Source: Mauremys mutica (taxonomy: Eukaryota > Chordata > Testudines > Geoemydidae). From it: 64,000 bases of DNA. The notes beneath the pieces are model-generated. The model was not told the origin of the DNA and did not search any database. It saw nothing but the letters and a program-made list of their open reading frames with translations. Positions 3,201 through 51,465 of this stretch are shown here, piece after piece (position 1 is the stretch's first letter; each line of letters begins with the position of its first letter). The stretch is taken from the NCBI RefSeq assembly GCF_020497125.1, contig NC_059076.1:8795951-8859950 (forward strand), given 5' to 3'. A program made the translations under genes and the position numbers.

Positions 3201-6200
3201 AATAGGGAACATTTAAATAAGCTAATCCAACTTCACCAGTGAAACCCATGGGGGCTAACAAAACAACTCCTTAAAAGGGTTTGTTTTTGTTTTTGTTTTG
3301 TTTTTTCTCAGCCATTTGCAGAAACTGCATCTACATATCATTTACATATTCACTGCTACTGCATTACAAATGTTTATGGTACAAATCTGCTTTGGTTAAG
3401 ATAAATTTCTGTCCTCATAACATTTTCATTTTTGTATCTCTCCTCAAGCTCAAAGATTAGTAAAGTGCATGGAATTTGATAAGCGATTGTGTCAAAAAAA
3501 AAAACAACACACATCCTTGTAACTCTATCTGATTATTTTTTCTTCTGCTAAAATGATAGTGGAATATAATCACTGCTAGTAGATGTGCTAATTCCTCTAT
3601 AGATCAAAGATCAATTCCTTTCTGCATTTGTTTTCTTTCTCTCCACAGGTCATGGGTTATAGGTGCAATAGCCCTACTCTGCCTCTTAGGACTGACCTGG
3701 GCCTTTGGACTTATGTATATTAATGAAAGCACAGTCATCATGGCATATCTCTTCACCATTTTCAATTCTCTGCAGGGAATGTTTATATTCATTTTCCATT
3801 GTGTCCTCCAGAAAAAGGTAAGACAGATTATTCCACGCTTCATAGTAGTGATACAGGGTATTTCGTTGCCTAACAACCACACTATAATGTTACCAATGTG
3901 CCTTGCATTTTTATTGAACAGACTTGTTTCTGTTTACATAATAAGGGCTGTATTTAGATTGGAAATTGGAGAGATGCATGAGAATGAGATACCGAATGAG
4001 ATGTATGGCTGTGGCATAGCAACAATCAGGATGTTGAAGATCACATTATCAAATGCAATACAAAATGGTAGCATGTAGTTTTGAGGGAGGATGTAATACC
4101 CGTGAGAGTTGTTTGCATTTTAGAGGCCTGATTCTCCATTCATTTACTCCAGTGTTACACTGAGATAACTTCATTGGCATCAATGGAGACATCAGTAACA
4201 TCAATGAATTTCCTTCGGATTTGCATGGGTATAAATGAGAGAAGAATGGGGTTGTGTATCTTGGCTTAATTTAAATTTAATTTAAATGCAAGAAGGCACT
4301 TGGGAATTGCCTGTCTATATCGATGTACATATTAGGTGTTAATAGGAACTGCTTCATTTATTTTTTTTTAAGGGGAAGTTTTTCAAATATTTTGAGGTGC
4401 ACAGATCCTATAGCACTGCAAGGTATATGTAATAACTGTTCCAAAAAGTCATGGAGAGGTTTTTAAGATCCATTTTGTACAGCATGGAAATTCAGGAGTA
4501 TGAAAGCTCTTTAAAAAAATTAATTTCTTCTACCGATGTTAAATGTACTTCTGGAATAATAAGGCCAATTTCTCTTTTCAGCTTACAACAGAAAACAATG
4601 TAAGCACTTGTAAATGTAGGCTCTGATCCTGTCTTGTGACCTGTGTGGCTGGAGAATAACAATGAGGATTGGGCTCTTGCTGAAATTTGATCCTGTTCTC
4701 CACCTACGGGCCACATCCAAAGCCCATTGAAGTCTCTGGAAAGACTCCCATTGACTTTAGTGCACCAGGCTGTAGGGGCTTGATCTTGCACCATTCGGGT
4801 GAATGGGTATCCTCCCTTTGACTTGAATGGGAGCAGGAACAAGCCCTTGATGAGCCTCAGGGTACTGCATTGCAACTAGTAGGTTGACAAGTAAAGCCTT
4901 GGCCAGCAAGTTGTTTGGAAGCAGTTGAGAACCAACTTGCTAAATCATCATGCTTTAAAACTGGAGAAAGAAACTTGGAATCAGATTTTTGCTCCATGTC
5001 ATTTCATCTCAAGAGTGATCATCATAAGAGACTTGAATGCTTTAGTTCAAATCCAAATCTGTGATAATGATTCTAAAACTTTTTAACTTCCATGCATAAT
5101 AATAAAAACGTAGGAAGATGCTGACTACCTTAAAGAGACAAGTCAGCTGAACAGAGCAAATACTGTCAGAAACATCTTTAGGCACCTACAGTATCTGCAG
5201 TTGCCCAAGGAGCCATAAGAGTTCTGGGGATTGCCACCTTACTTTAGGCTACTGTTTATGAAAATCTTGACCTAAAAGTTTAGAGCTGCTATTTAGTATC
5301 TCAGGTAGCACAATGCAGCATCATTGACTGCACAGTATAGATTGGTTTCAAGCATTTCTTGAAGGTAAGAAACTAAGCAGACCTATATATGTATCTATAT
5401 TCATACGCCAAGCATTTACTGATGTATTGGCTTCGGGTGCATGATGTGTTCTTACTGTTTTAATGATAATGACCCAATTCAGCAAAACATGTCAGCACAA
5501 ACCTTATTTTAAGTACCTGAGTAGCTCCAAGGAAATCATGAGGATTACTTATATGCTTAAAGTTAAGTGCATGCCTAAATGCTTTGCTGGCATATACTCA
5601 GTAAGAGCAATGTAGTTACTTAGTCACTTTTAAGCAGCCATATTGCTACAACCTACGTTAAAAAAAAAAAAGAAGAAAACACCAGAATTCTCCACCAAAT
5701 CCGCTGGGGTTTAGAGGAGAAAAGAAAACTCTGCTTGTAAATGAACCGATGGCATTTTCACTTAAATGTGGAGAAAATTGTAGAGCTTCTGAGCCTTCAG
5801 GAGAGCCAATTCTTCTTTATTACAGCATGTATGTGGAAATGTTAATTTGACCTTTTAATAAATGAATCATTAAGGGCTAGATTGTGATTCCCTTATTCAC
5901 GTTGAGTAGCATCTTACTCTGCAGGCAGTCGCATTGTCGTGGGGCATCAGGCACCACTCAGCGTGAGTAAGGGGAATTCGTCTGTCCCATATTAGGCTTT
6001 GTAAATTCTACCATCTATATACATGATATATAAAATAGAAAGGAATCCTGCTAATCTCAGTCAAAAAGAGCAAACAAGGGTGGCACGAGCATGCCCTTGA
6101 AACAATTCTCTGCTGAATACGCTGTTCAAAAAGCATTTGCATTGGATCTGTGCATCTGTTTCAGTGTTAAGTGCAGTATCCTCTAAGCTGTTTAACGATG

Positions 6201-9200
6201 ACAAGAGAATGCAGTTATACCCTGAGTACCTATACACCTCCAGTGCCTCCTGAGTCAAAGGCCGGCCCGCCTGCCTTTCCAGCACTGACTCTGAGAGGGC
6301 ATCTGATAGATATGCAAGTCTTGTTGTGTGTTACTGCTGCTCTGTATTTCTAACAATTTACTAGTCTATATATAGCACAGATTAGGAAAGAGGGAAGGCA
6401 CTTAAACACATGCTCAGGTCCCATTGGGTGTGTCTACACTGCCTTGTAAATCCGGATCTGTGGGACCTGGGCTAGTGGACTCAGTGTTTCCAAGCTAACG
6501 CGTCGGTATCCACATGCATTATAAATCTGAGTTACGGTTGCTGGACCCAGGTTTAGTGGTGCTGGAATTAGGGGTGCTGCAGGTTCTGCCACACCCCCGG
6601 CTTGAAGCAGTAATAACAAACACCAAATACATGGTTTCCATGGCTACCATCATCAGCGCCGTCACTATAAAAATTGTCCCAGCACCCCTGCCCAGGTCTC
6701 AGAGCAGTGCTAACACAGCCATACTGCAGTGCACAGACCTTCTGCGGCTTGAGCTGCGTCCACACTGCAGAACGACAGGGCTTCGACCCGAGTCTCAGCA
6801 GGACTTGGGCTCGGATCCACCCCCCAAACCTGAGTCATACCCCAACCTTGGTGTGCAGTGTAGACATACCCATTGACAGCTTTACATGCAGTCCTAAATA
6901 GGGGCTCTTTTGTGAGCGTAGGCCCCAATGCGTATTCTGGAGATTCTGACGCCCTTACCCCAGTCCAGTAGCACTAATTCCATGCCTAGTGCCATTGACT
7001 TCAGTGGATCTGCCTGTAGCGTATTCAGCAGAAGGCCCATGTCAGACGCTGGCCCGTTAAGTGCTAATTTCAGCAGCTGCTGCTGAGGTGTGGGTTGTGC
7101 TCTTCTGGTGTTTGTATATTTCTGGGGAGATGGGGGCTTCATTTCTCCATTAAACCTGTTTCAGCTGTCAGTGGTTTGGGTTTGCTCTGCTCTCTGACTC
7201 CTTAATGATTCTAGTCAGATGTACAGTGTTTCCTTTTATGAAGAAGTTGGATTTCTTTCAAGTCTGTGTTTCCTGTACACCCTGTTGCTCTAACTCTCAG
7301 CCCTCTTGCAAATGTTTGTTTTCTAGCACAGCACCGCTTAATGGCATTATAGCATTCTGGCCATTCCAGCACCGGATGCTTATTTTACACTCTTTGGCCA
7401 GAATCTCTCCTCTCTCGTGCCAGTTTTACGACAGTGTTCTGGCGTTGATTTCAGTGGGGTACTGCTGATTTACGCCAAGGTAGGGGAGAGGAGAATCCAG
7501 TCCTGCCCCTGGATTTTGGGTATCTCTTTCCCTGAACCAAGGGGTTGGGAGAGGGATTATTTCGGGGGGAGGGGACATTTTCTTTCTCTCACGGACTGGA
7601 AAATCAGCACATAGCTGTGGTGGGAAGCAGTCGGTGGCTAATTAAAGGAATTGAATTATTTTCTCTCAGCAAAGGACTGATTAGGCACTCGAGAGCACAT
7701 TGGGCACTCATGGTATTGTGTTTGTCTCAAGCTTTTATGGAAAGGCCTAATAAAAAAACCCTGTAATCTGCTATTTAAATAATCGTTTCGCAGATAGGTT
7801 TCTGAAATGCCCACAGGAAGAGTGGAGAGAGATTTAATCAGAGAGCAGTGAGCACAGTGTGCTCACAGACTAACCTCTACTGGTCTCCTACTGCATTTAC
7901 ATTTCACGTGGCGAAGTAAAGTGGCCTTTTTTTCACATTTGTGGCACAGCCTGAGATCACCCAGCTCAGCAGATGACCCATTTTCACTCTGACCTCTCCC
8001 TGGTCTCCATGCATGTGCAGTCTAAATTATACACACACTCCAAACTTTTGCAGTGCCTAGGGCCTCAGTTGGGGGGATGTCAGTGTAGTTCCATTGAAGT
8101 CAGGGGAACGACATCAATTTCTGCCAGCTGAGGATCTGGCTCATTTTGTGTGCTAGAGAAATTACCCCATTAACTCTTCAGTCTTGTCTGCCATATTATA
8201 GGGCTTTATGAGGGCGTTTGCACCATTCCCACCAGTTCTACACACAGAAGACTTCATTTCAAAGACTGTCAGTTTCACAGTTTTCTGGAGGTTGAATATG
8301 TATATGAAATCAATTCCTCTTATACGGTTCTTTTTTTGTAATTTCCTTCCTAGTCCCCTGCCAGAAGCAATAACTTGTAGCACCATGATGAGCTGATATG
8401 CCAGTTCATACCAAATCTATGAAGATATCATTTTTGGGCATAAATAGAATGTCTCTAGTTTCTCTCGTGCTGCTTTGATGTGCCTCAGAGGTAGCTGAAT
8501 TCTACTGATATCAGTGAACTGCTTTCCTACATAAAAGCAGTCCCTTATGACATCATAAATGTAGAGTTAATGTGTTAGGAGAACACTGTTGAAAGGTGTA
8601 ATGGAATTCTTCTAAATGCACAGAAACAGCTATAATTTTAATGAATCACAGAGGAGGAAAAAAACTGTTGAAAATCTTAAGTCTCAGGCTGGAGAGGGAG
8701 TTGCCCACTAATGGAAATTACTGTTTAATTGGCTAGGTACGTAAAGAATATGGAAAATGCCTGCGCACACATTGCTGTAGTGGGAAAAGTACAGAGAGCT
8801 CCATCGGCTCAGGAAAAACATCTGGGTCACGGACTCCTGGACGATATTCCACAGGCTCACAGGTAAACCGTGTATGTTCACCAGCAAGGAATGCTTCTTA
8901 CCTCCCTGCTAATATAGTTCTTTGCATCGGGTGATCTGTAGGCAAAGGATTCATTTCTGGAAATGAGACATCCCCTTGAACAGGTACATTACTTTGTGCA
9001 GTAACAATCCATCAGTCAAGGAGGCTTCATTTGCTTGTAAAACTGATGGGGGAATAAGTTGATTATAAAACTGATTTGATAAGTGGGCAGCTCAAAGACT
9101 TCCTGTTTGGTATCATTCTTTCACTTCTGAACGTCATGGGTCACACTCTGCTCTTTGTTATAGGGGTGTAATCTGTAGCAGTTCCATTAGAACTCAAAGG

Positions 9201-12200: not shown

Positions 12201-15200
12201 GGACTCTGCAGCTGTCCTTGTTGAACCTCATCAGATTTCTTTTGGCCCAATCCTCTAATTTGTCTAGGTCCCTCTGTACTCCCCATCAACCCCAATGATG
12301 TTCTGCGTAGGGGAAAAGGAGAGGTTGCCCTGCATCCTTTGTACCTGAGCAATACCTTGGATTGCATAGGATTCTGTTAAAGATCGAGGCTGATAATAAA
12401 ACCATCTGCTTTCCATTCACTGCCAGCATATGGGGATAAGTAGCTCAGCACAGCAGTTTGCAGGCATGAAGCACAGCCACACACACACACCAACACTGCA
12501 CACATTTCCCTTGCCTAATCCATCTCTTTGGGCGGGGGGGGATCATGTCCCAAACTCCTTGTGTGTGGCTGTTCTCTAAGCCTGCTCTGCTGGGTCTGTC
12601 CAAACTCAACAAAGTGGAGAACACCTTCCATGTTCGGCTATGTGGAAAAGCACAATGCTTACTGCTCTGGGAACACTCCCAGGGCTCAGCTCTCATGCAC
12701 TGAGGAGCACGGACTCTTTGACACACAAACTAGGAAAGATGAGGCTGCCCATGGTGACACTACAGTGCAAGCCATGTGTACCTCGGACTTCATTCTCCCA
12801 CTGCCATATACCCCAATGCGATGCTGGTGTGACTCCTTCAGGCCCCTAATTATTATTATTGTAGTAGCAGTTTTATACTGTAGCTTGCAGCTAGTACATC
12901 TGGAATCGTTCTCCCTGCGTCAGGAGACGAGGGATGACAGAAGCCACAACCCCAGACTGGGTTTCCCCACAGCAAAGGCGGATCATGTGTGCAAGCCCAT
13001 GACAGTCCCAGTTGTACAGCATTGCAGCAAGTTCAATTGGCCACCTCTCATCCTGACATTCAGCAATGCAGCTGGGAAATATATCTCTTTGGACCCTTCC
13101 TCCAGATAATGGGGAGAAAATCAACCAGCAATAAGGAGCCAGATTTTCAAAAGAGCTCAGCACCCAACGCCTCCCATTTAGGCATCTAAATTAGTGACTG
13201 GGTTTTCCAAAGGGGATCAGCTTCCATCTTCAGGCATCTAAAAGAAAGGATCAGATTTTCAAAGAACAACAGGCGCTACTCAGAAATGAGTTGGTCTGAA
13301 AAACTGCCCCTGCTCGCAGCTGCTTAGCCAATTGGAAATGTGTCAGTAGATTTTCCAAAGCACAGGCTTGGGGATGAGGCGGTGTGGTGTGAGTGACAAA
13401 GGTAAATGCCCCATGACCCATCTGAAAGACAAAACAGAAGACCGCTAAATCCGGGATAACACAACAAGACCTCTTCAATAAATCTATACCATAAATGTCA
13501 GAATCTTCACTGTTTTTCATTAGGGGAATATAACGTCTCTTGTTTTGTGGCTGTATTTATTTCTCACATTCCCCACAGTGGATAATAAACTTCTAGAAAA
13601 CTTGAGCACATCCAAAGATGCCTAGACATAAACAACTATTCCAGTATACTTGAAAAAAAACAGATACAAATCAATATACAACAAGGGAATTTTAGAAGCA
13701 TTCATACTATTTTCTGTGAGTTAGTTTCAGTCATTCAACACTACATGGCTGGAACAATATCTTGCATGGAGGTTATTTTGTGCACGGTCTGTTCTGCTTG
13801 TTTATTAATATTTAGAAACTATGTGGTATCCTGCGATGGAGATACAAATTCATGTTCTGAAGCCAGGCAGCCAGTGTCTGGTATGCAATAGGCGGGTGAT
13901 AGCCAATCAGAAACTGCTTACTTATACCTGGATAGGAAGATGTCTCTAGACATGCCAGTAAGCCATCTTTAGTGAGGCAGAAAGAAATCTATCTGCAGCT
14001 GCTAAAAATTCATTACCTGTATGGTTCAATCCCTCTTCAGAGCCGGATCCGTAGAATGTGGAATGACACAGTTCGAAAGCAGTCCGAGTCTTCCTTTATT
14101 ACTGGAGATATAAACAGTTCAGCTTCACTCAACAGAGGTAATTATAGACTGTTTTTCTTATCTACAACTTTTATGATTATTTTTAAGTAGTTTGAAATTT
14201 ATTCCCCTTCCTTCTCCCCAAACCTCAAATTGTGCAGGACCTTATTCACTGTGACAAGAATGTTACATCACAGAATGAAATGCAGTTGGAGTGCAGTGTA
14301 TTCCAGTGTCCATTAACTGGAAAGGGTTTTTTGTTGGGGGTGAGGTGTTGTTTGGTTGGTTGGGTTTTTTTTCCTTGTTTTAACATATGCATTTTCAAGA
14401 ATATAATTTCCAAAAATGTTAAGAAATTTAAAAAAGCCTTTTGTCCTACGGTCGACAGCTAGAGCTATCAGCTGGTAAGCCATCAGGCCTCATTGCTAGC
14501 AGTAAAAATGGGCAGTTATGTGGCTGTACAATCCGTTAAGCCACATTGTCCCAGGTATAAAGCAATTTCTTAGTATTTGTAGAAGTAACAAGATACTGCA
14601 GAACACACACTTAGACAAACCTGCACACTTGGAACAAAATAATTGTGAGTGATCTTAATATCTACGAGTGCCTGACTTATGTGAGCAGTTCAGAGCTCTG
14701 GGAGGGAAACATTATTGGAAACGTGTAGCAATGGAGTAATGGTAAACAAAATACAACACCTATTGCAATGTGAAATCTTGGCATATTTAAAAAGGTTTCC
14801 CGTTGAGTTTTTTCCAGGAAAAAGGATTGTATGGAATTATTGGATCTCCTAAGCCTCCCAAGCTGCCCTGTTCACCTCTAGTTAAATTATTTTGATGGCT
14901 AACTCTGGGCCGAATCCTAAGGGCTGTACTTGCTGCCAAATTCTGCTCCCTGTTTTACAACAAAAATCCACCAGATAAATACTGGTGTAAACAGAGGACA
15001 AGATTCGGCCCTCAGGGTCTGATCCACCTCTCATGTACACCAATGTAAGTCTGAAGTAATCCCACTAAAATCCATGGAGTTGTTTCCATGTAAAGATGCT
15101 ATGACAAGAGACTCGGGACATTGGTTCTTATTTGGTCCTTATTCAGGTAAAATTCCCGTTGACTTCACTTTGAGTTTTGCCTAAGGAAGACCAGGCGGGG

Positions 15201-42200: not shown

Positions 42201-45200
42201 AGAGAGTCTCCAGGATCCTCAAAGTAGCCCCTTCTATCAGCAGTAAATCCACTCCAGGCAACACGTCCCCCAAGGGGCAAGGCCAGAGCCATGGGCATCC
42301 CTGCCCCCCAACCAGCAAAGGAGGTAACGTTACACCTCCTGAAGGGCAGAATTCCTCCTCCCGTGGGGTGGCAGAGCTCTGCACTGCACCACGCCCGGGG
42401 CTGGGCCTCCAGGGCTTGGGCAACATGTGCTGTACAGACAGGACCATTGGAAGGGCCTGTGTTAAGCTGGAAGCAGGAGTTTCAGTGGATATCCGTAGGC
42501 AGTTTCCAGCTCTTTGTAACAGAGTGAAATATACAAATAACCTCGGCATGTAATGACATGGAGCCACCTCCTGGGCCAACAGCACCACGTGACACATGGA
42601 CCCTCCTGTCCCGGGTCGGCGTGAGCTGTGCCCCAAAATGGCTGCCACCCTCTCCCCGTCTCACGTATGTTCTTTGTAACCCCTTCTGTTCTGTCATTTT
42701 TCCCCTTTTGTTGCTAAGTCATGTTCTGTTTCCTGTCCCCCAGTGACTCTCCCTTGCCCTCCAAACTCCCTTTCCCTCTCACCCTCACCACAGGCCTTCA
42801 TGTTGTTGCGACTGGGGGGTCCCTTGGCATGCCTGAGCACCTCAGGAGCGGAGGCGGCTGCCTGCATTGGGTGCTGCAGTGGAAGCAAGGAGGGCAGGCT
42901 GGTGCCTTTTGAAGAGCAATCTACACCCAGGGCTGCACCTTCGCAGCAGGTTGTTGAAGCAGAGGTGTCATTCTGTTTTCTTCACCCCTACTGCTCTTCT
43001 CCACTGTCCTGCAAGCCCCCTCTTGCCTGCTGAAGCACCTCTTGCCCTGGGCCTGCTGACTGGGCAGGGAAGTGTGATAGACCAGGTTAGGCCAGGAAGT
43101 AAAGAATATGTATGTGCTTGACACGTCTGGCCAGTGACCGAGGGAACGTCCCTTCTCCCTGCTCCTAGTCTGAGGGTTGGTCTTTGGCAACGATGCCGTG
43201 ATCCATGTCAGATTTTCAACTGCCCCTTCACATAGATGTGTATTCCTGCTGCGAATTGGCTAAGGCAGGGGAGGGAAGTCACTGCCACAAGAACCAACTT
43301 CCTTCCCTTAGGCACAAGGTAGGTGTCTCTCTGGTTACATGCTGAAGAGCAAAAATCCAGCAGCTCAGCCTCCTGAAGTCTAACATAAAGAACAGGCAGA
43401 GTTGTGGCCCCTCAGCTTCCTCTAGGTTGTAGTTTCCAAAATGACAGCCAACGAGGATGTGAGTGAAAAATTGTATTTGCAAAGGCAACGTAGAGCCCTG
43501 GAATAGCAAGACCTCCATGGGCTGCTCTAGTCCCGTCTGTAGGAACTCTTGAAAGAACTACGATGCTCACGCTTGTGAGGGCACGTTGTTGTTGCACAAT
43601 AAGCTGTTACCGCGTAGATTTAAAGCACAGTGGATAGAATTGTACTTGCCCTATTGTACGTAAATAGCTGCTCCTGGAATAAGAGCTCTCATAAGTGCCC
43701 AAAATCTTATGGAAGCCAACATTTTCCATCCTTCCTTTTTTATATATGTTCCGAGTGACCAGTAAATAAACCCTAGTCAACAGTGAGAGTTGAATGTATT
43801 TTCATGTGAGTCATTATTATTGTTTGGTTCATTTGGCACTTTCTGGAGATGATCCCATCCCCCCATTGTGTAGACTGTCACCTTTTGTCATATCCTTGCT
43901 TATACTCTGAGCAACTAGGGAAACCGCCATAAATATGGGTTATCAGCATTCCAATCCATTTTCTTTCACATCGACTTGGATTTGTGCATTGTCAGAAACA
44001 TCTGTGCTGCTTTAGTGGCATATAGTTTTCAAGTCTAATTAGCTGGCTGCTTGTAATCAGGACTATTTCAACTGTTGTCATTCTGAATGTTCTTTTTTCC
44101 TTTTTTTTTTATACCATATTTGCCTGATTGACCTTTTTTTTTCTCTGTCTTTCTATCGGGCTGCTCCAGGAGCCATGGCTAATCACCTTATAACCAATGC
44201 TCTGCTTCGTCCTCATGGCACTAACAACCCTTATAATACATTGCTCGGGGAATCGGCGGTCTATAACAACCCTTCTGTCAGCATGTACAACACACAAGGT
44301 GTGCAGGAGTTTCTCTCTAATTTTTCTAGTGAGGGTCCCATTTTATGTGGCTTATATAGGCCCATTTTTTCTTTTTTCCCTTCGTTCCCCCCCCTGTTTT
44401 TTTTGGAACCAGGTATAAATAATCTCTCCTCTCATCTCAGTACATTTTTCCATTTTCCTTAGGTTTTTTCTCACTAGCCCTACCAAATGACCAGCTTCAG
44501 TTTAATAGCCACTCATCAGAGCCATTCAAATATGTGTGGTGGTTTTGATTCTTTTGGTTTTGTATTGTTTTAGTCATCGGTGTGTCTTTTGTCCGCTGTA
44601 TCCATTTATCGCTTTGTTGTCAGTTCGTTTCTTTGTTAAACCATTCATTTTAGAAAGAGGAGCACCTTTCAAGGTAAGTGAGGTCAAAATGGCCTTTGAT
44701 ACCAAAGCTACTCTTGCTTTTGGAATAGCATATAGAAAAATAAATTGTCAATAGCTCATCAATGTATCTGTCAGAGATTATGCATTAAAAAAAAACACCC
44801 TTGAGCTCTAATGGAATGAGAAATCTAGACTGATTCCGAAGAGAGCAGATTTTAGAGTGGGGTAATTAATGTATTGTCATGTAAATAAATGCAAACTACA
44901 TGTGCTTTAAGGAGACCAAATAAGAGCTCCAGGAAACTAGAAACTGGAATCAAATAGCTGCAAAGAGTCAGCTGGACCTACTCTATAAGATTCTACTGCA
45001 AAAATCATTTCCTGTGACCTATATGTTTGTCTTCTGTATTTGCTCTGGTTGCATGAGTAGACCATGTTTGTAAATGAACGTCACGATGCTTTTTGTTATA
45101 GATCGGTCTATTTACAGATGATTTGCGGAATAAATCTGGTATTTGGACGCTTGATCAGGTTGCATCTGTTAAGTTTGATAGTTCAGCCTTTTATCCTTTT

Positions 45201-48200
45201 TTTCCCCCATAGACAACTGAATCATTGGAGAGTAACTCTGCTTTCAAACACAAATACTTTCCAAAATGTCAGCTCTCTTTATTTGCTCCTCTTCTAATTA
45301 AGATGTCCCTTTGCAGTAAGGGGTCTCATAAAGAAAGTAAATAAATAACGGCAACAGTGCAAGCAATAAAGATATGTTGTAATATGCAGCATTGTTTATG
45401 GTAAAATTATATATTGACTTGTATCATTAGGGTCTTTTAATTCCAACCACGAAGGGGAAAGCATATGCATTTGACCTTTTCTCTGTTCATAAATTTCTGG
45501 AACCATACTAACTTCTCACAATAAATTAGATTGCACTAATTCTTGTTAAAGGAACTAACATTAAGTGTGAATTGTTCTGAATTTTAAGAGTTTGCTATAT
45601 CACAACTGTTGAAGCAAATTTTGATAATCTGCACAGTTTGGGTATGTAAATATTTATATTTTCTTGCTGCAGAAGTGTTACGGTTGTTACTGTTAAAAAG
45701 ATGCTGTGCTTTAAGATTAACATCATTTTACATCTGCTTTCAAAACTAGCCCGGGGAAGTTTTAAACTGGGTTATAGAAGTCCTGGCTGGATGGCAGCAG
45801 GAAATGTCGAGTCAGCATTTGGCTTATTGTAATCTCCAATTTTCTTGGCTGTGTGTCTCAGCTCTACAAATGTGCTCAGGGCTGAAATATGACAAAATGT
45901 TTCTGCTAGAAAGTGCATTTTAAAAAATGGTCATCCAATTTTAAGGCCCAGCTGCTAATTCTGTTATTTGCACTGAGTAGAACCTCATTCCACAAATAGT
46001 CCCTTTGATTTTAAGATGCTACTCAATACAAGGGAGCAGAACTGGGGCCAGAGAGGTTATAAGTATGCTAAAAGCAGACCTGTTCAGGGTTCAGTCAATA
46101 GAAATTAAAGAGAACTCCACGAGTACTGATGCCAGTTAAGCCACTGGATATTTACCATTGACTTCAGTGGGAGCAGAACTGAAGTCAGTATTTCTGGGAG
46201 ACTACGAGTTTATTGATAGCCATATCACGGGAAGTAAGAAGTGTAATAGATATTGCCTTCGAAACTAGGTGATTGTCTCTGGGCAGGAATTTCTTTGCAG
46301 TGTTTGAGGTACGTCCCTATGAATTTTAGAGGAGTCCATATTGCAGCCCCAGGTTAGTAAATACAGATTCCACAAAAGGCCTTATGAATCCTCTGGGATT
46401 CATGCATACTGACCCCATAGCCAAACTAACGGAGCCATTGTGATAATCTATTGAGTTGATAACACATTATAAATATCCATTCGGTGCCACTTTAGCATGG
46501 CTTCTGTGCACTTCCCACGCACTACAAATTGTCACCGCATTTGGGTTTGTCTTGACTAGGATTTAATGGTTACAGAACATCTTCTATCTAACATGTTCTA
46601 AAACTCTAACGTAGACAAGGTGGTGGTTTCTTGCACCTCCCTCTGAAACGTCTGGTATTGGCCATTGTCAGAGACAAGGCACTGGGCTGAATGAACCTGA
46701 GGTCCGAAACAGGGCAGCAATTTCTGTGTTCCAGTGTATGTCAGTGCTGTTCACGGTGAAGCTACCTTCTCTGCTCTAGACTTTTATAATGTGCTAGCTA
46801 AAACATTCTAGCCAAATGACACTAAATCTTAATCAAGACAAGCCCTTTGGATCTGTTATTTCTGGGCAGGGAATCTGCAGCTGCTCTCCCTTGCAAAAGC
46901 AGAGTTGAGCACTGCTTGCGGGAATCTGTTTTCACAAGTATTTGACTTCAGGGCGAGCTTGTGTAGCACACTTGCAGACCACATGCCCATCTAGCACTCT
47001 GTACTGCGGCACAGTTTTGTCTGAGAACAGGTGTTTGCCATTAGGATCCAAAGCCCATTGAAACCAATGGAAAGACCCTTCAGGTCAGGCCTTAGAAGTC
47101 AGTGGTGACACTCTCAATTCCTTCGATGGGATGGGTTTGGCCATAAAGGAGTGAATAAGGTAATGGTTGAGAAATTGAGGGGTTTGCTGAACCATAGAGG
47201 TTGCCACAAGTTGGACCTGAGAGAGGAGGTGTTTTCACTGGATAGACTGAAATCAGTTTGAGTCTTGGATAAATGATGGGTGTTTTACAACAGCTTTCGT
47301 GAAAGATCATTTTAAGAGAAGAAGGAAATAAGATAATGTAAATGAGGTGTGCCACAAACTAATACAAAATGGGAAATTGAAAGTTAACACTTCATCCTCA
47401 TCTTTGGTGTGTTTGGTTTAAAAGCAAAAGCAAACAAATAAATCTTCATTGCAAAAGGTTTTAAAATGCCAACACCCCCTGGATGAGCAAAATCACACGG
47501 TAACAAAACTGTGTGTGCAAAAGATGTATAGCAAGGAAAACCACAGTATAGCAAGGAAATGCATTTCAATTTCAACTGCCGGGGTGGTTATAACTAACAG
47601 TAAGTAAAGACATTCATTCTGATGGCATTAAAGGTGTCTGTCTTTCTGAGTGGGGATTGCCAGTTTAAACTTTACATTTCCAGATGTTTATTCTTGATTT
47701 GTATTGCACCCTAAAAATGTAAACTGAGATGGAAAAACTTTCAAAAAGAGATCTTTTTTAAAAGTCACGTTTATTATTGTGCTCAAAACATTTTTTCTCT
47801 AAAATGTCAGTATTTTAACCTGCAACAAACCATGTAACAGATTCATGTATTCTGGGCAGTGGAAATGATTTCTGTTAACTCTTTTTTCTGCATATCATCA
47901 ATTTGCTTTTTACTCATGTTTCTCCTACTGTCGCTGTAAGCTTACTTGTTGTTTTTTCTTTCCTTTTCTTCATGCTGTCGTTTAGAGCCCTACAGAGAGA
48001 CAAGTATGGGAGTAAAGCTAAACATTGCATATCAAATGTAATTTTTTTAGTTCACTTTTATTGCATCACATATAGATGATGTAGTTATTAAAAATGGTTC
48101 ATCACTCACAATTCTGAAAACAAAAGAATAAAAACCATATGGATTAATATATATAGTTATATTATATATATTGATACAGATTAGATGCTTTTGTTGTCTA

Positions 48201-51200
48201 TTTTCTTTTTTGTGTCATTTACCCAACATAGGTTCTAAGTCTCATGTAATTGTGTGTGTGTGTGTGTGTGTGTGTGTTACATTGTTTTAAATTAAACATT
48301 TTTATTTGCAAAGTCATAAACCTTTTGTCAATTTATATGGCATATTTCATTATGAAACTTACACTATTTCAAATGCAATCCATCCACTTTATTTTCCTAC
48401 AGAATCTTCCAGCCTCCAATTCTATGCATTGGCAGCAGAAATAACAAGCAGTGTCTCGATGCATAAGTTACTCAGCCATGACCATCAAGCAGACACTGTA
48501 GCAACAATCACTCATTACACACAGTCCCTTAAAAATATTTGCTTTTTATTTTCCTTAAACGTTGTGGATCATTTATGGAGACCTTCTAACATGAAAATAA
48601 ATGGCTTTGTTCTATGTCTGTGATGGCTAGTTTATTTTATGCATAACTTTCCTTGTTTATTTGGAAATACATGATACAACAATATACCATATGCACCAGA
48701 AATCCAAAATAGGGATGACATATTCGGGACATTTCACTCAAAGAAAGAACAAAGTCTGTAGTAGCACTTTCCAGTCTTAGCTAGATATACTGAAAGTACT
48801 GCATCACAGATATAGACTGAATCCTATATTTTCAGAAGGTACACTAGCAGTGTATTAAGAGTTTTTCTTGCTGATGTGAATGACCATTAATCTTTGTTGT
48901 CAACACAGAGCAACTCTAATCCACCACTGCTGGTTCAGTGTTGTCTGTGATTTTTGGCAGCATCTGAATGCACTAACTGAAAAAACGCATGGAAAGTTTC
49001 ATACAGTCTCATGTTGGGTGTTCATTCTAGTGATCACAATAGTCATTAGCATGATAGCTTAACATGCCAGGACCTGATTCTCCTCTCACTTAAACTGGAT
49101 TTACTCCACTGGCTTCAAAGCAGTTACTCTTTATCTACAGTGGTGTAAGTGAGTGAAGATCAGGGGCGGCTCCAGGCACCAGCACCCAAGCACGTGCCTG
49201 GGGCGGCAAGCCATGGGGTCGCTGCGAGGGCGGCAGGCAGGTTGCCTTCGGCGGCTTGCCTGCGGAGGGTCCGCTGGTCCCGCGGTTTCGGCGGACCTCC
49301 CGCAGGCGTGCCGCTGAATCCGCAGGACCAAGGACCTCCCGCAGGCAAGCCGCCAAAGGCAGCCTGCCTGCCGTGCTTGGGGCGGCAAAATACCTAGAGC
49401 TGCCCTTGGTGAAGATTCAAGCCCCTGCTTTTTATTTACAGTGTTAGTAGGCTTATGGAAATTTATATAGTTCCTTAAATAGTTTCAGCAAAACCAACTG
49501 ATTCCCAGAAGGCACAGGTCTAGTTTCTGCAGTTATATACGTATTTTTTCCTGTTGTAGGTCAGAAGTCCTAACATTAGAGGGTTACATTTTCAAAATGG
49601 CAGGCAAGCTTATAACTGGCTGACTCATGCAAATGGGAATTATGTGACTAAATACCCAAGCAGCCCTGATGAAAATGCACCCCATCAAATCTACAGTGCC
49701 CATAATCCTTACAGCATGCACTGTCCCTGCAATTGAACAAAGCTACCTAATGAAAAACTGAAACTCAGAAACAGCTTTTGAAAGAATATAGTATATGGAG
49801 TTTAGCAATAACAACACACACAGAACTGTAATCCCTAGCATATGACTATGATATAAAATTCACAGCACAGCATCATGCAAATAATTTTGATCATGTCCTT
49901 GTAACAGAAGGAATGTGATACATAATTTCTTTGCAAATATGTCTCAAAGATAGAAAATGATTTAAAAAATCAAACACAGATACACAAGCTAGTCACCATG
50001 AAGCAAAAATTATAAGTTATATCCATGCAACTCCATTGCATCAAGTGGAGTCACATTAAGCGTAAGGAAGATAAGAATTTTTTCCCCAAGATCTCACATA
50101 TGCTGTCAGTTTACTAAACCATGTTTTGGGAATGGGATAGCTATTCTACAAATACAGGTCCGCCGCTTATGTAACTTGTCATCGTTCCGTTGAAATCAGT
50201 GGTGCTAGGACAATTTATACCAGCTGAACATCTGCCCCATAGATTTCTTAGTTTTAAGGAACATATAAAAGAAGCTGAGATTTGGGAGCAGCTATGTGTG
50301 ATATGAACAGGAGCTATTTGGAAGGCTGTTCCTTCTTATAAGCTACTGACAAATCAAGTGCAATACCTGATACCAGATATCATTTTCAGTGGAAAAACCT
50401 TAATCTTATTAGCTAGAGCGCTTGTTCCCATGTAAAAGATTATTAAGCTTTTTTGTTTTTTCTATGATGCTACTATTGTTATCAAACCAAATCTATTTTT
50501 TTTAATTTTTAATTTTGTTTGATAAAAATTTTTACACAGCTGCTGTGTTAACATAGCAACACAGTGCAGCATTGATTGATTAAGAAAGTGTGATGTTTGT
50601 ACGAGTCCTGCGCGAATGTCCTGTTTTGCCCAAGTCACCCTCTCTTGTGTGATGTTTTTCAGAGGGGCTTCTGAACAATGCCAGGGATACAAGTGTCATG
50701 GATACTCTACCACTGAATGGTAACCACGGCAACAGCTACAGCATCGCCAGCGGCGAGTACCTGAGCAACTGTGTGCAAATCATTGACCGTGGGTATAATA
50801 ACCACACCGAGACTGCCCTAGAGAAAAAGATCCTGAAGGAACTCACCTCCAACTACATCCCTTCCTATCTGAACAACCACGAGCGCTCCAGCGAACAGAA
50901 CAGGAACCTGGTGAACAAACTCGTCAACAACATCGGCAGTGCGACCGAGGACGACGCCATCGTCCTCGACGATGCCACCTCCTTCAATCACGAGGAGAGC
51001 CTGGGCCTGGAACTCATCCACGAAGAGTCCGACGCCCCCTTGCTGCCGCCAAGGGTTTATTCCGCTGAGAACCACCAGCCACACCACTACACCAGAAGAC
51101 GGATCCCGCAAGATAACAGCGAGAGCTTTTTCCCCTTGCTAACCAACGAGCACACAGAAGACCACCAGTCGCCCAACAGGGATTCTCTGTATACCAGCAT

Positions 51201-51465
51201 GCCCACGCTGGCTGGCATGCCCGTCACAGAAAGCGTTACCACCAGCACCCAGACCGACCCCCCCACGGCCAAAAGTGGTGATGCCGACGATGTGTACTAC
51301 AAAAGCATGCCAAATCTAGGCTCCAGGAACCACGTCCATCAGCTACACACTTACTACCAGCTGGGGCGAGGCAGCAGTGATGGTTTTATAGTCCCACCGA
51401 GCAAAGACGGGACTTCCCCCGAAGGGAGTTCCAAAGGACCTGCTCACTTGGTCACTAGTCTATAG
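213..51465 (+). CDS. ADGRL3: ADGRL3 (latrophilin-3) 3' part, gene-level span, 5' partial
   Basis: This is the 3' part of the adhesion GPCR latrophilin-3, a postsynaptic receptor that in other vertebrates binds teneurins and FLRTs. Seven exons are visible, covering the ICL3 insert, TM6, ECL3, TM7 and the whole cytoplasmic tail: 213-239, 3649-3817, 8737-8862, 14041-14137, 44170-44298, 47986-48037 and 50663-51465. All acceptors are AG and all donors GT, and phases join without a gap (2, 0, 0, 1, 1, 2 or 1). The tail contains [33 protein letters not shown] and the terminal PDZ ligand LVTSL. The choice of ADGRL3 over ADGRL1/2 rests on the tail block around [17 protein letters not shown] and the end GPAHLVTSL, recalled from mammalian latrophilin-3. 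The extracellular domains, GAIN domain and TM1-5 lie upstream of the window. The 129-nt, 52-nt and 27-nt exons are alternative, so no single transcript need contain every exon. Confidence 0.95.
240..3648 (+). other. ADGRL3: ADGRL3 intron between the ICL3 microexon and the TM6/TM7 exon
   Basis: Phase-2 intron of 3.4 kb. It holds a (CT)n/(CA)n tract at 1959-2008, T-rich stretches near 3280 and a short fragment of the dispersed palindromic repeat near 2375-2440. A TGCATG at 648-653, about 410 nt downstream of the microexon, matches the Rbfox binding motif. No other coding signal was seen. Confidence 0.75.
1959..2008. repeat. (CT)n microsatellite interrupted by CA
   Basis: About 50 nt of alternating CT with a short central (CA)n block. 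On the minus strand it gives a spurious Arg-Glu repeat peptide. Confidence 0.95.
3649..3817 (+). CDS. ADGRL3: ADGRL3 exon encoding TM6, ECL3, TM7 and start of helix 8
   Basis: The acceptor ctccacag ends at 3648 and the donor gtaaga starts at 3818. The exon is 169 nt: one base completing the split Lys codon plus 56 codons. The product begins [20 protein letters not shown] (TM6, with the adhesion-GPCR GLTWxFG motif), continues through [10 protein letters not shown] (ECL3) and enters TM7 with [20 protein letters not shown], ending CVLQKK at the membrane edge. It ends in phase 0. An open frame runs past the donor into the intron, but it loses similarity immediately at the splice site. Confidence 0.96.
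6427..6870. mobile_element. Inverted-terminus DNA element (MITE-like), outer copy
   Basis: The left end GGTGTGTCTACACTGC matches the reverse complement of the right end (GGTATGTCTACACTGC), with one mismatch in 16. A flanking CATTG occurs on both sides (6422-6426 and 6871-6875), a candidate 5-bp target duplication. It carries no coding capacity and has a second element inserted at 6554-6690. The superfamily is uncertain. Confidence 0.65.
6554..6690. mobile_element. Short hAT-like MITE nested in another element
   Basis: The left end TAGTGGTGCTGGAA and the reverse complement of the right end (CAGGGGTGCTGGGAC) form imperfect inverted termini. Flanks are CCCAGGTT (6546-6553) and CCCAGGTC (6691-6698), an 8-bp target duplication with one mismatch, as expected for hAT. 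The outer MITE continues on both sides, so this insertion is younger. Confidence 0.65.
7385..7500. repeat. Dispersed palindromic repeat, best-preserved hairpin copy
   Basis: The arm ccagaatctctcctctct...gccagttttac pairs with gatttacgcc...gaggagaatccag, with gttgatttcagtggggt near the loop. Other copies, all approximate: 4125-4250, 5878-5990, 8060-8145, 9135-9247, 15010-15075, 16940-17045, 25028-25110, 39270-39360, 40325-40395, 41480-41560, 50155-50245, 54065-54195, 57950-58030. Confidence 0.6.
8737..8862 (+). CDS. ADGRL3: ADGRL3 proximal cytoplasmic-tail exon ([14 protein letters not shown]...)
   Basis: This 126-nt exon has acceptor ggctag, donor gtaaac and phase 0 at both ends. It encodes 42 residues: [20 protein letters not shown], then a Ser/Gly-rich stretch ending [11 protein letters not shown]. 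It continues directly from QKK of the TM7 exon. The clustered cysteines after helix 8 (KCLRTHCC) are plausible palmitoylation sites, and the Ser/Thr-rich remainder is plausible for phosphorylation; both are inferences. It matches the latrophilin-3 tail order. Confidence 0.95.
10211..10370 (+). mobile_element. tRNA-derived SINE with CR1-like tail
   Basis: The head has an RNA polymerase III A box (TATAGCTCAGTGG) and B box (GTTCAATCC). The tail (ggtcctgctttgagcagg, gactagatgatct, ccaaccctaataatctatga) matches the 3' end of the CR1 copies in this window, implying mobilisation by CR1 machinery. The middle appears shorter than in the 28450-28628 copy. Confidence 0.85.
10640..11033. repeat. AT-rich interspersed repeat (TTTCNAAAC/GAAA-rich)
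   Basis: A/T-rich sequence of short TTTTGTTT, AAACATTT and GAAAAA words ending near ggaaaattcccaaccagctctg. The composition resembles 61490-61870, suggesting one family. I cannot name it. Confidence 0.45.
11439..12285 (-). mobile_element. CR1 LINE 3' fragment with ORF2 C-terminus
   Basis: Read on the minus strand, this runs from the end of the CR1 reverse-transcriptase ORF into the CR1 3' end (tcatagaatcatagaatctc on the plus strand, 11439-). The open frame at 11524-12003 gives [53 protein letters not shown] and RLDIRKNFF, typical of CR1 ORF2 C-termini. Codons further 5' are in another frame, so the copy is broken and 5'-truncated. It is not an active gene. Confidence 0.93.
14041..14137 (+). 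CDS. ADGRL3: ADGRL3 tail exon ([18 protein letters not shown]...)
   Basis: The exon begins right after a pyrimidine-rich ccctcttcag and ends before the donor gtaatt at 14138. Its 97 nt give 32 codons plus one base (phase 1): [20 protein letters not shown], then [12 protein letters not shown] and a split codon. The final 'g' can join three different downstream acceptors in frame: 44170 (giving Gly-Ala-Met-Ala), 47986 (Glu-Pro-Tyr) or 50663 (Glu-Gly-Leu-Leu). This junction is therefore the branch point for alternative C-terminal tails. Confidence 0.95.
17750..17945 (-). mobile_element. tRNA-derived SINE-like repeat
   Basis: On the minus strand there is an A-box-like TTAGCTCAAGCAATAGAGG followed about 45 nt later by a B-box-like CAGGTTTGATCCTG, spaced like a tRNA promoter. 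It differs in sequence from the 10211 and 28450 SINEs, so it is probably another family. The boundaries are approximate. Confidence 0.5.
18425..18515 (+). repeat. ATTATTTGTATT...CCCCA LINE-tail repeat
   Basis: Reads ttattatttgtattgcagta then acacctaggggccacagtga. Similar segments occur at about 28110-28190 (sense) and, reverse-complemented, at about 21168-21240 and 31208-31268. An old amniote repeat, not named. Confidence 0.5.
19665..19790 (-). mobile_element. CR1/L3-type LINE 3' end fragment
   Basis: The plus strand reads aaggccagaagttaccatta and atctagtccgacctcctgca, the reverse complement of a CR1/L3 3' terminus and a diverged relative of the CR1 end at 11439. A tRNA-like B-box (gggttcaaat on the minus strand) follows near 19850-19865. 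Confidence 0.65.
21785..22740 (-). mobile_element. Old CR1/L3 LINE 3' fragment
   Basis: About 1 kb antisense. The 3' end is at low coordinates (cataatgggtcagacctgtg, atccatctagcccagtatcc), then words conserved in CR1-L3 ORF2 ends such as ttagtctctcctcatgtgga and cccttctctgaacctttcca. It has no intact frame. It is more diverged than the CR1 copies at 11439 and 25188, hence older. Confidence 0.8.
25188..26003 (+). mobile_element. CR1 LINE 3' fragment, interrupted by a SINE and deleted
   Basis: Sense CR1: 25188-25254 and 25453-26003 are two halves of one copy, ending in ttctatgattctatt. The open frame 25513-25881 encodes [20 protein letters not shown] and [20 protein letters not shown]. Compared with the antisense copy at 11439-12285, the segment between 'aacggcatt' and 'ctgaagtactgtgtc' is missing, so this copy carries an internal deletion in addition to the SINE. 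An (AAT)n tract at 25168-25186 abuts its 5' end. Confidence 0.92.
25255..25452 (+). mobile_element. tRNA-derived SINE inserted into CR1
   Basis: The A box is GATAGCTCAGTGG and the B box GTGAGTTTAATCC. The body contains ttgagggggccccttaggga, and the tail ggtcctgctagtgcaggcaa / cccttctagttctaggagat differs from the CR1-like tail of the 10211 and 28450 copies. It splits the surrounding CR1. No clear target-site duplication was found. Confidence 0.88.
26100..26290 (+). mobile_element. MIR SINE
   Basis: Contains gtgaccttgggcaagtcctt and ctgtgcctcagttccccatc followed by tgtacaatgggga, the conserved MIR body, then ttcacagagtgttgtgcaaa. Sense orientation. Confidence 0.85.
27785..28117 (+). mobile_element. 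Diverged CR1 LINE 3' fragment
   Basis: Carries degenerate versions of the CR1 ORF2 end (gtagaacaagaagcaatggg, gtaggttagatattaag) and finishes in ttattattctatgat. Clearly related to 25188-26003 but older. Confidence 0.75.
28450..28628 (-). mobile_element. tRNA-derived SINE with CR1 3' tail
   Basis: On the minus strand it starts gggggagggatagctcagtg with B box gtgagctcaatcc, and ends with the CR1 3' end (gacctcctgaggtcccttcc ... attctatgac). It is the most complete SINE in the window and shows the tRNA head and LINE tail in one unit. Confidence 0.9.
29480..29800 (+). mobile_element. MIR SINE split by an insertion
   Basis: The left half is ttggtgaccttgggcaagta; the right half resumes at atgcctcagtttcccatctg followed by taaaatggggataatagca. 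Between them (about 29556-29682) lies foreign sequence beginning agatccacaaaggtatttag, the terminus seen in the element at 37003-37775. Confidence 0.75.
30109..30232. mobile_element. Palindromic hAT MITE, 124 bp, with exact 8-bp TSD
   Basis: The left arm TAGGGTTACCATACGCCCAT and the reverse complement of the right arm (TAGGGTTGCCATACGTCCGT) are long inverted repeats, so the element folds into a hairpin. GTCCAATA flanks it on both sides (30101-30108 and 30233-30240). No coding capacity. Confidence 0.88.
33060..33287 (+). mobile_element. CR1/L3 LINE 3' end
   Basis: Recognised by ttaaccactggaacaattta, tccatcactgacaattttta and the terminal cagatgagatgctcacaatg. It lacks an open frame. Old copy. 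Confidence 0.7.
33744..33955. repeat. TTTTCAAA / CTCAGCACCCA repeat
   Basis: Words such as gcaagggctcagcacccatt and ttttgaaaatctgactttct recur near 13138-13280, 56285-56425 and 62625-62680. An interspersed family with weak inverted symmetry. Confidence 0.45.
35205..35560 (+). repeat. G-rich minisatellite inside the hAT element
   Basis: Five or six degenerate units built on ggggacagggagcagggggg followed by ttggatgggg-type sequence, with near-continuous G runs on the plus strand. Strong G-quadruplex potential by inspection. Unit length varies, roughly 55-85 nt. Confidence 0.8.
35659..36653. mobile_element. Tc1/mariner (pogo/Tigger-like) non-autonomous element nested in hAT
   Basis: The left end CAGAAACTCCTCACTTAA matches the reverse complement of the right end (CAGGATCTCCTCCCTTAA), and TA lies immediately outside both ends (35657-35658, 36654-36655). 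CAG termini with TA duplication fit pogo/Tigger-type elements. It contains (CA)n at 36221-36240 and (TA)n near 36459-36472 and no intact transposase. Confidence 0.7.
36915..37905 (+). mobile_element. MIR-like SINE split by a TIR element
   Basis: The left part has MIR-like gactcaaatttcttgtgtga; the right part resumes near 37780 with ctgtacagtggtacttccta and aaatacttttaagattgtga, the MIR 3' half. The intervening sequence is the element at 37003-37775. Confidence 0.55.
37003..37775. mobile_element. DNA element with inverted termini inside MIR
   Basis: The left end TTAGATCCATAAAAGGGATTTAGG pairs with the right end CTAAGTCCCCTTCGTGGATCTT in inverted orientation. Internally there are two tRNA-promoter-like segments (around 37145-37215 antisense and 37312-37365 sense), so it may be composite. 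No target duplication could be fixed. Confidence 0.5.
40147..40196. repeat. Short repeat fragment with 13-bp tandem duplication
   Basis: The phrase gttagtctataag occurs twice in tandem before gtgccacaggattctttgct, a phrase I associate with a reptile interspersed repeat. A related phrase, agactaacgcggctacccct, occurs near 41908-41927. Family not named. Confidence 0.4.
41190..41280 (+). repeat. Conserved LINE-derived fragment (…GCTTTACAAAGGAGG)
   Basis: The words tatagcacttttcatccaca and gaaagcgctttacaaaggag are typical of an old amniote LINE-tail repeat. The exact family is uncertain. Confidence 0.45.
44170..44298 (+). CDS. ADGRL3: ADGRL3 alternative in-frame tail cassette ([12 protein letters not shown]...)
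   Basis: This 129-nt exon has acceptor ctgctccag and donor gtgtgc, with phase 1 at both ends, so inclusion or skipping preserves the frame. It encodes [20 protein letters not shown] followed by a stretch ending SVSMYNTQ. The donor caag|gtgtgc departs from consensus, in keeping with an optional exon. It lies more than 30 kb from the preceding exon. Mammalian latrophilin-3 has isoforms with and without a near-identical peptide (recalled). An AG|GT at 44412/44413 would extend the exon in frame by 114 nt; see findings. Confidence 0.92.
44299..47985 (+). other. ADGRL3: ADGRL3 intron between the 129-nt and 52-nt cassettes
   Basis: Phase-1 intron of 3.7 kb, AT-rich. The first 115 nt stay open in the upstream frame and end at a pyrimidine tract followed by ccag|gtataa (44412/44413). 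The rest holds a weak palindromic-repeat trace near 46090-46200 and no element I can name. Confidence 0.75.
47986..48037 (+). CDS. ADGRL3: ADGRL3 52-nt frame-switching cassette exon ([17 protein letters not shown])
   Basis: A long T-rich tract ends in gtcgtttag, and the donor gtaatt starts at 48038. The 52 nt complete a Glu codon, encode [16 protein letters not shown] and leave 'at' (entry phase 1, exit phase 2). Because 52 is not a multiple of three, inclusion shifts the terminal exon into its alternative frame. Ile-Gly-Ala-Ser-Glu-Gln then follows, ending at a TAA at 50721-50723 and removing the long tail and PDZ ligand. Mammalian latrophilin-3 isoforms carrying this peptide are known. The sequence is preserved without stops in the frame used, which supports function. 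Confidence 0.9.
48251..48277. repeat. ADGRL3: (GT)n microsatellite
   Basis: About 13 TG units in the last ADGRL3 intron, 210 nt downstream of the 52-nt cassette donor. GU-rich tracts can bind CELF or TDP-43-type proteins, but a role here is only a possibility. Confidence 0.9.
49075..49445. repeat. Dispersed palindromic repeat, split copy
   Basis: Begins ggacctgattctcctctcac and continues as ctacagtggtgtaagtgagt before the hAT insertion. One of at least ten copies of this family in the window. Confidence 0.6.
49161..49408. mobile_element. GC-rich hAT MITE, 248 bp, with exact 8-bp TSD
   Basis: The left end CAGGGGCGGCTCCAGG and the reverse complement of the right end (CAAGGGCAGCTCTAGG) differ at three positions. 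GTGAAGAT flanks both sides exactly (49153-49160 and 49409-49416). The interior is GC-rich with inverted CTTCGGCGG/CCGCCGAA-type words. It interrupts an older palindromic repeat (49075-49445). Confidence 0.9.
50663..50723 (+). CDS. ADGRL3: ADGRL3 alternative-frame short C-terminus inside the terminal exon
   Basis: When the terminal exon is entered from the 52-nt cassette (phase 2), it reads Ile, then [19 protein letters not shown] and a stop (TAA at 50721-50723). The same 61 nt therefore code for two unrelated peptides, this one and [19 protein letters not shown] of the long form. I recognise this short ending from mammalian latrophilin-3 isoforms, so both frames appear to be under constraint. 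The short form lacks the LVTSL PDZ ligand. Confidence 0.85.
50663..51465 (+). CDS. ADGRL3: ADGRL3 terminal coding exon, long tail with PDZ ligand
   Basis: The acceptor gatgtttttcag ends at 50662. Entered from a phase-1 donor, the exon encodes 266 residues starting (E)[19 protein letters not shown] and ending [12 protein letters not shown] with stop TAG at 51463-51465. This is the latrophilin-specific cytoplasmic C-terminal region. The last residues V-T-S-L fit a class I PDZ ligand, which in latrophilins binds SHANK scaffolds. In-frame blocks include [40 protein letters not shown] and [17 protein letters not shown]. The middle of the exon is noticeably richer in CpG than the surrounding introns. 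GYNNHTE appears one residue longer than my recollection of the mammalian sequence. Confidence 0.97.

Follow-up and report, generated by a model that had tools for sequence, protein, structure and literature searches.

Alternative splicing of the latrophilin C-terminus has been described in a 2019 review that cites Sugita 1998 and Matsushita 1999 (PMC6629964), and the closest described system is mouse Lphn3/Adgrl3. For this receptor, the available text of Wang et al. (2024, PMC10830413) reports in-frame exons 28 and 29 and an exon 30 that is used as 30a or 30b, the a and b forms being, according to a figure legend, versions of a single exon that differ in donor or acceptor. The 30b form puts exon 31 into another reading frame, is found in 20-25% of mouse transcripts in ribosome-bound mRNA, and its inclusion moves the coupling of the receptor from Galpha-s to Galpha-12/13 (PMC10830413). 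Mouse transcripts can also end in an alternative last exon, E32; the main published switch of scaffold recruitment is the choice between E31 and E32, and the function of the PDZ ligand motif is known from the same animal (PMC10830413). A wider class of dual-coding genes arises by non-triplet splicing and is characterized, in the text available, by a common stretch of 60 nt or more in which wobble positions are more conserved (PMC13247117). The DNA analysed here, a stretch of 64,000 nt from the turtle Mauremys mutica (the window), almost certainly carries the known C-terminal splice switch of ADGRL3 (latrophilin-3).

Exons and reading frames of the ADGRL3 tail

The 3' exons of ADGRL3 lie on the + strand of the window, and the features of interest are the following:

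14041..14137, + strand: tail exon equivalent to mouse E27 (SRIRRMWND...SASLNR/G), exit phase 1; placed by splice sites and frame, and mouse E27 oligos map there
44170..44298, + strand: optional 129-nt exon that keeps the frame (GAMANHL...YNTQ); placed by splice sites and frame and, judged by its position, probably mouse E28 or E29
47986..48003, + strand: cassette, 18-nt form (E30a reading), donor CAA/GTATGG at 48003/48004, frame kept
47986..48037, + strand: cassette, 52-nt form (E30b), donor AAT/GTAATT, frame of the last exon shifted
50663..51465, + strand: terminal exon (mouse E31), coding portion, read in the main frame as EGLLNN...LVTSL plus stop; mouse E31 oligo sites
50663..50723, + strand: dual-frame block, alternative stop TAA at 50721-50723
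51448..51462, + strand: codons for the PDZ ligand LVTSL at the C-terminus, present in the main frame only

The longer cassette (47986-48037) has AG/GT boundaries and a length of 52 nt, which leaves a remainder of 1 on division by three. When it is skipped, the last exon is entered at 50663 in phase 1 and reads E plus 266 codons (EGLLNNARD...LVTSL); entry in phase 2 starts with (AT)A-GGG and yields 20 residues before the TAA at 50721-50723, so that a product with all 52 nt included has a frame-shifted end of which the last 22 residues run up to the same stop. Rechecking of splice sites and phases showed that the exon coordinates and the two-frame reading given in the original prediction are exact to the base, and its figure of about 60 dual-coding nucleotides becomes 61 when counted with the stop (50663-50723), 57 of them sense bases (50664-50720). 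The loss of the PDZ ligand that it had proposed was also found, the shifted frame ending in TTEW in place of LVTSL. Its view that one splice choice governs the ligand needs refining: the 52-nt donor shifts the frame, and an 18-nt donor of the same exon, which the original prediction overlooked, gives a product (EPYRETK-GLLNN...LVTSL) that keeps both frame and ligand. Exon inclusion by itself does not shift the frame, because the cassette holds a frame-keeping donor after 18 nt, and the frame is set by inclusion and donor choice jointly.

A third GT in the cassette, at 48012, would yield RGF followed by a stop, and no support for its use was seen. Further features in and around these exons were recorded as well. 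By eye, a (TG)n run is seen at about 48250-48277, 0.2 kb past the cassette donor, and a GC-rich, repeat-like block at about 49160-49400 in the E30-E31 intron. The RBFOX motif TGCATG does not occur between about 47001 and 51200; GCATG occurs at 48987, 49049, 49714 and 51197. A promoter and terminator scan of 47900-48100 returned no match, the scan being a bacterial one and ill-suited to a vertebrate gene. Three oligo sites of mouse E32, an exon absent from the original prediction, have no match in the window at up to 3 mismatches (the best have 4-7); this exon may have diverged or be located outside the window.

As for the identity of the gene, named ADGRL3 in the original prediction, the long tail matches the Latrophilin C-terminal region of Pfam (PF02354) with E 2.8e-126 and the short tail with E 1.1e-45. 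In a protein search with the tail, the top three matches have 78-91% identity and two of the three are named ADGRL3; identity is 35-51% for matches that bear the names ADGRL1, ADGRL2 or latrophilin 2. The tail thus appears nearer to ADGRL3 than to ADGRL1/2, and these comparisons support ADGRL3 (latrophilin-3) as the gene in the window. ADGRL3 coding motifs are also present further upstream (MFIFIFHC at 3779 and a 10-residue motif at 8806), in exons preceding the tail.

Conservation of the alternative tail and origin of the mini-exon

A protein search scored on a 40-residue segment containing the short tail retrieved 204 proteins at the cut-off of E<=0.001, of which the best 120 were listed. 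The search words were drawn from the tail itself, so divergent tails are under-represented among these 120 records, many of which are predicted isoforms, with several from a single species. By name they comprise 95 mammal, 11 squamate, 8 bird, 5 turtle and 1 newt record. From EPYRE to TTEW, all 37 residues are shared by 119 of these best 120 of 204; the sole deviating tail (Cervus canadensis, P0183) carries one change. All 120 end at the same stop position, and the 11 residues encoded only in E30b are invariant in 120/120 (again the best 120 of 204). The alternative tail is therefore unchanged from newt to human among the records listed, and with human and bovine proteins included, conservation from reptile to mammals holds as the original prediction had claimed. 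Human RefSeq isoforms 20, 21 and 22, bovine UniProt isoforms 4 and 8, and the turtle records (Gopherus, Caretta, Lepidochelys) all have a tail identical to that of the window, and differ upstream only, e.g., by the presence or absence of the 129-nt exon. E27 is joined directly to E30b in 50 of the best 120 of 204 records; the 129-nt exon is found in the other 70, of which one lacks the E27 motif. The peptide encoded by the 129-nt exon of the window has exact counterparts in five records of this list, from turtles in four cases and from a newt in one.

This conservation bears directly on whether E30b could be splicing noise that annotation pipelines have spread, with a second frame that is open by chance. 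Such frames are easily found: among 20,000 synonymous recodings of the last exon, the second frame stays open for at least 19 codons in 45.6%, and an open frame this long is nothing out of the ordinary. Many of the records are predictions, and among short proteins bearing the tail the search returned seven candidates and none at E<=0.001. Noise is nevertheless a very improbable explanation in view of the 119 identical tails among the best 120 of 204, the curated-looking human and bovine isoforms and the presence of E30b in 20-25% of ribosome-bound mRNA in mouse, as the available text reports (PMC10830413). A chance open frame as the sole explanation was rejected even though 45.6% of the recodings are equally open, and the evidence for the alternative tail is its conservation (119/120, best 120 of 204) and not the openness of the frame.

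The 18-nt donor probably corresponds to mouse E30a of Wang et al. (2024), and its junction peptide EPYRETK-GLLNN is found in 7wy5_R, a chain of a solved structure assigned to 'Isoform 3' of ADGRL3, and in a goby protein (P0020). A PDB search with the short tail returned one chain, with the match confined to the shared upstream part. Related peptides occupy the equivalent position elsewhere, namely SYREPK in ADGRL1 proteins (P0103, P0110), TYRETK in a catshark latrophilin (P0108), and APYRDTK (P0017, P0028) and EPYRETK (P0020) in teleosts. Because mini-exon peptides are common to ADGRL1, a shark latrophilin and teleosts, the in-frame 18-nt form looks older than the 52-nt form and is suggested to be ancestral; the 52-nt form occurs in tetrapods only, among the best 120 of 204 records.

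Constraint on the dual-frame block

Third positions of the main frame are first positions of the alternative frame and, because of this arrangement, any single base change within the block is non-silent in at least one of them. The main peptide alone permits 4.9e10 sequences for the block; the two peptides jointly permit exactly one for 50664-50720, with three stop variants. Since the two peptides fix these bases, species encoding both must carry identical DNA, and such identity would be expected in species beyond mouse. For mouse itself, published oligos for E31 and the dual-frame block match the window with zero mismatches at 50663-50682 (20 nt) and 50690-50713 (24 nt), which covers 44 of the 61 block bases, 44/44 being identical. 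Synonymous differences between mouse and window number 0 in 12 degenerate codons of the block, 11 in 23 of E27 and 3 in 12 of the rest of E31, with one non-synonymous codon set aside from the last count. For the block, Fisher's test gives p 0.0055 with E27 as the reference and p 0.0094 with E27 and the rest of E31 pooled, the counts being small; taken by itself, the contrast with the rest of E31 (0/12 vs 3/12) is not decisive. The low synonymous variation anticipated by the original prediction is thus borne out by proxy, through the one sequence that the two peptides permit and through the mouse-window comparison with E27. Two frogs (Xenopus tropicalis P0036 with DTNIMD and Engystomops pustulosus P0022 with MDTLQLNGN) have other main-frame residues in the block, a difference that would change the alternative frame too. 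The constraint may therefore not be valid for all tetrapods, and frogs may have lost or lack the switch.

What this constraint protects can be read in two ways. The block may have been kept as DNA for splicing control, through enhancers by the E31 acceptor and the small exon, in which case the short tail would merely drop the PDZ ligand. The location of the block, right where an alternative exon begins, fits this account, and the 44/44 identity of mouse and window cannot discriminate, as either cause keeps the bases. Splicing control, although it could keep bases, does not require that the E30b-only residues and the stop position be kept, as they are in 120/120 (best 120 of 204), and we regard this explanation as possible if rather doubtful. 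The invariance of the E30b-only residues (120/120, best 120 of 204), at bases which the other two forms skip, speaks for the short peptide having a role of its own. On this basis we tentatively propose, as a quite conceivable reading, that the E30b tail is a selected signalling module and not a mere truncation, with both frames of the 57 bases fixed since the tetrapod ancestor. If the tail is such a module, the 52-nt form may be an extension of the older 18-nt mini-exon with its PYRETK-like peptide common to fish and paralogues, and the conserved TTEW end, with T at -2 and the hydrophobic W at 0, could bind a partner of its own.

Function of the short tail and comparison with known systems

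In the mechanism that best accounts for these data, the small alternative exon E30 has one acceptor and two donors. Skipping of E30, or use of the 18-nt donor (E30a), gives the long tail with LVTSL; use of the 52-nt donor (E30b) adds 17 residues, shifts the frame of the first 57 sense bases in the exon that follows and ends the protein in TTEW. The short-tail message would be expected to escape nonsense-mediated decay and be stable, because the E30b stop sits in the last coding exon. The product would be a receptor without the SHANK/PSD95 ligand, presumably biased from Galpha-s to Galpha-12/13 as reported for mouse, and E30b is likely to be used in Mauremys mutica as well. Of the effects on G-protein coupling and scaffold recruitment that the original prediction had mentioned, a coupling bias has been published for E30b in mouse; that E30b would also lose scaffold binding is what we infer from the missing LVTSL motif. 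In the available text of the mouse study, the scaffold assays compared E31, E32 and deletion of the motif and not E30b (PMC10830413), a design that leaves the function of the short tail unseparated from loss of the PDZ ligand. The near-total dual-frame constraint predicts a function of its own for the short tail.

The switch is confirmed as real, conserved and already known, described in mouse and annotated in many other vertebrates, and the sole fresh detail is the tightness of the dual-frame constraint, which is not to say that dual coding has gone unreported in ADGRL3. With the described class of non-triplet dual coding the locus has in common that the reading frame of a shared stretch depends on a splice choice (PMC13247117); that study is on C. 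elegans, with human transcriptomes analysed as well, and the names Adgrl, Lphn and latrophilin do not appear in its main text in the version available. The likeness to mouse Lphn3, as far as the available text goes, lies in the optional in-frame exons and in a small exon whose b form shifts the frame of E31, whereas the difference is that transcripts and function have been shown in mouse, along with the alternative last exon E32, whose oligo sites had no match in the window. The published synaptic splice switch of mouse thus has the same parts in a reptile.
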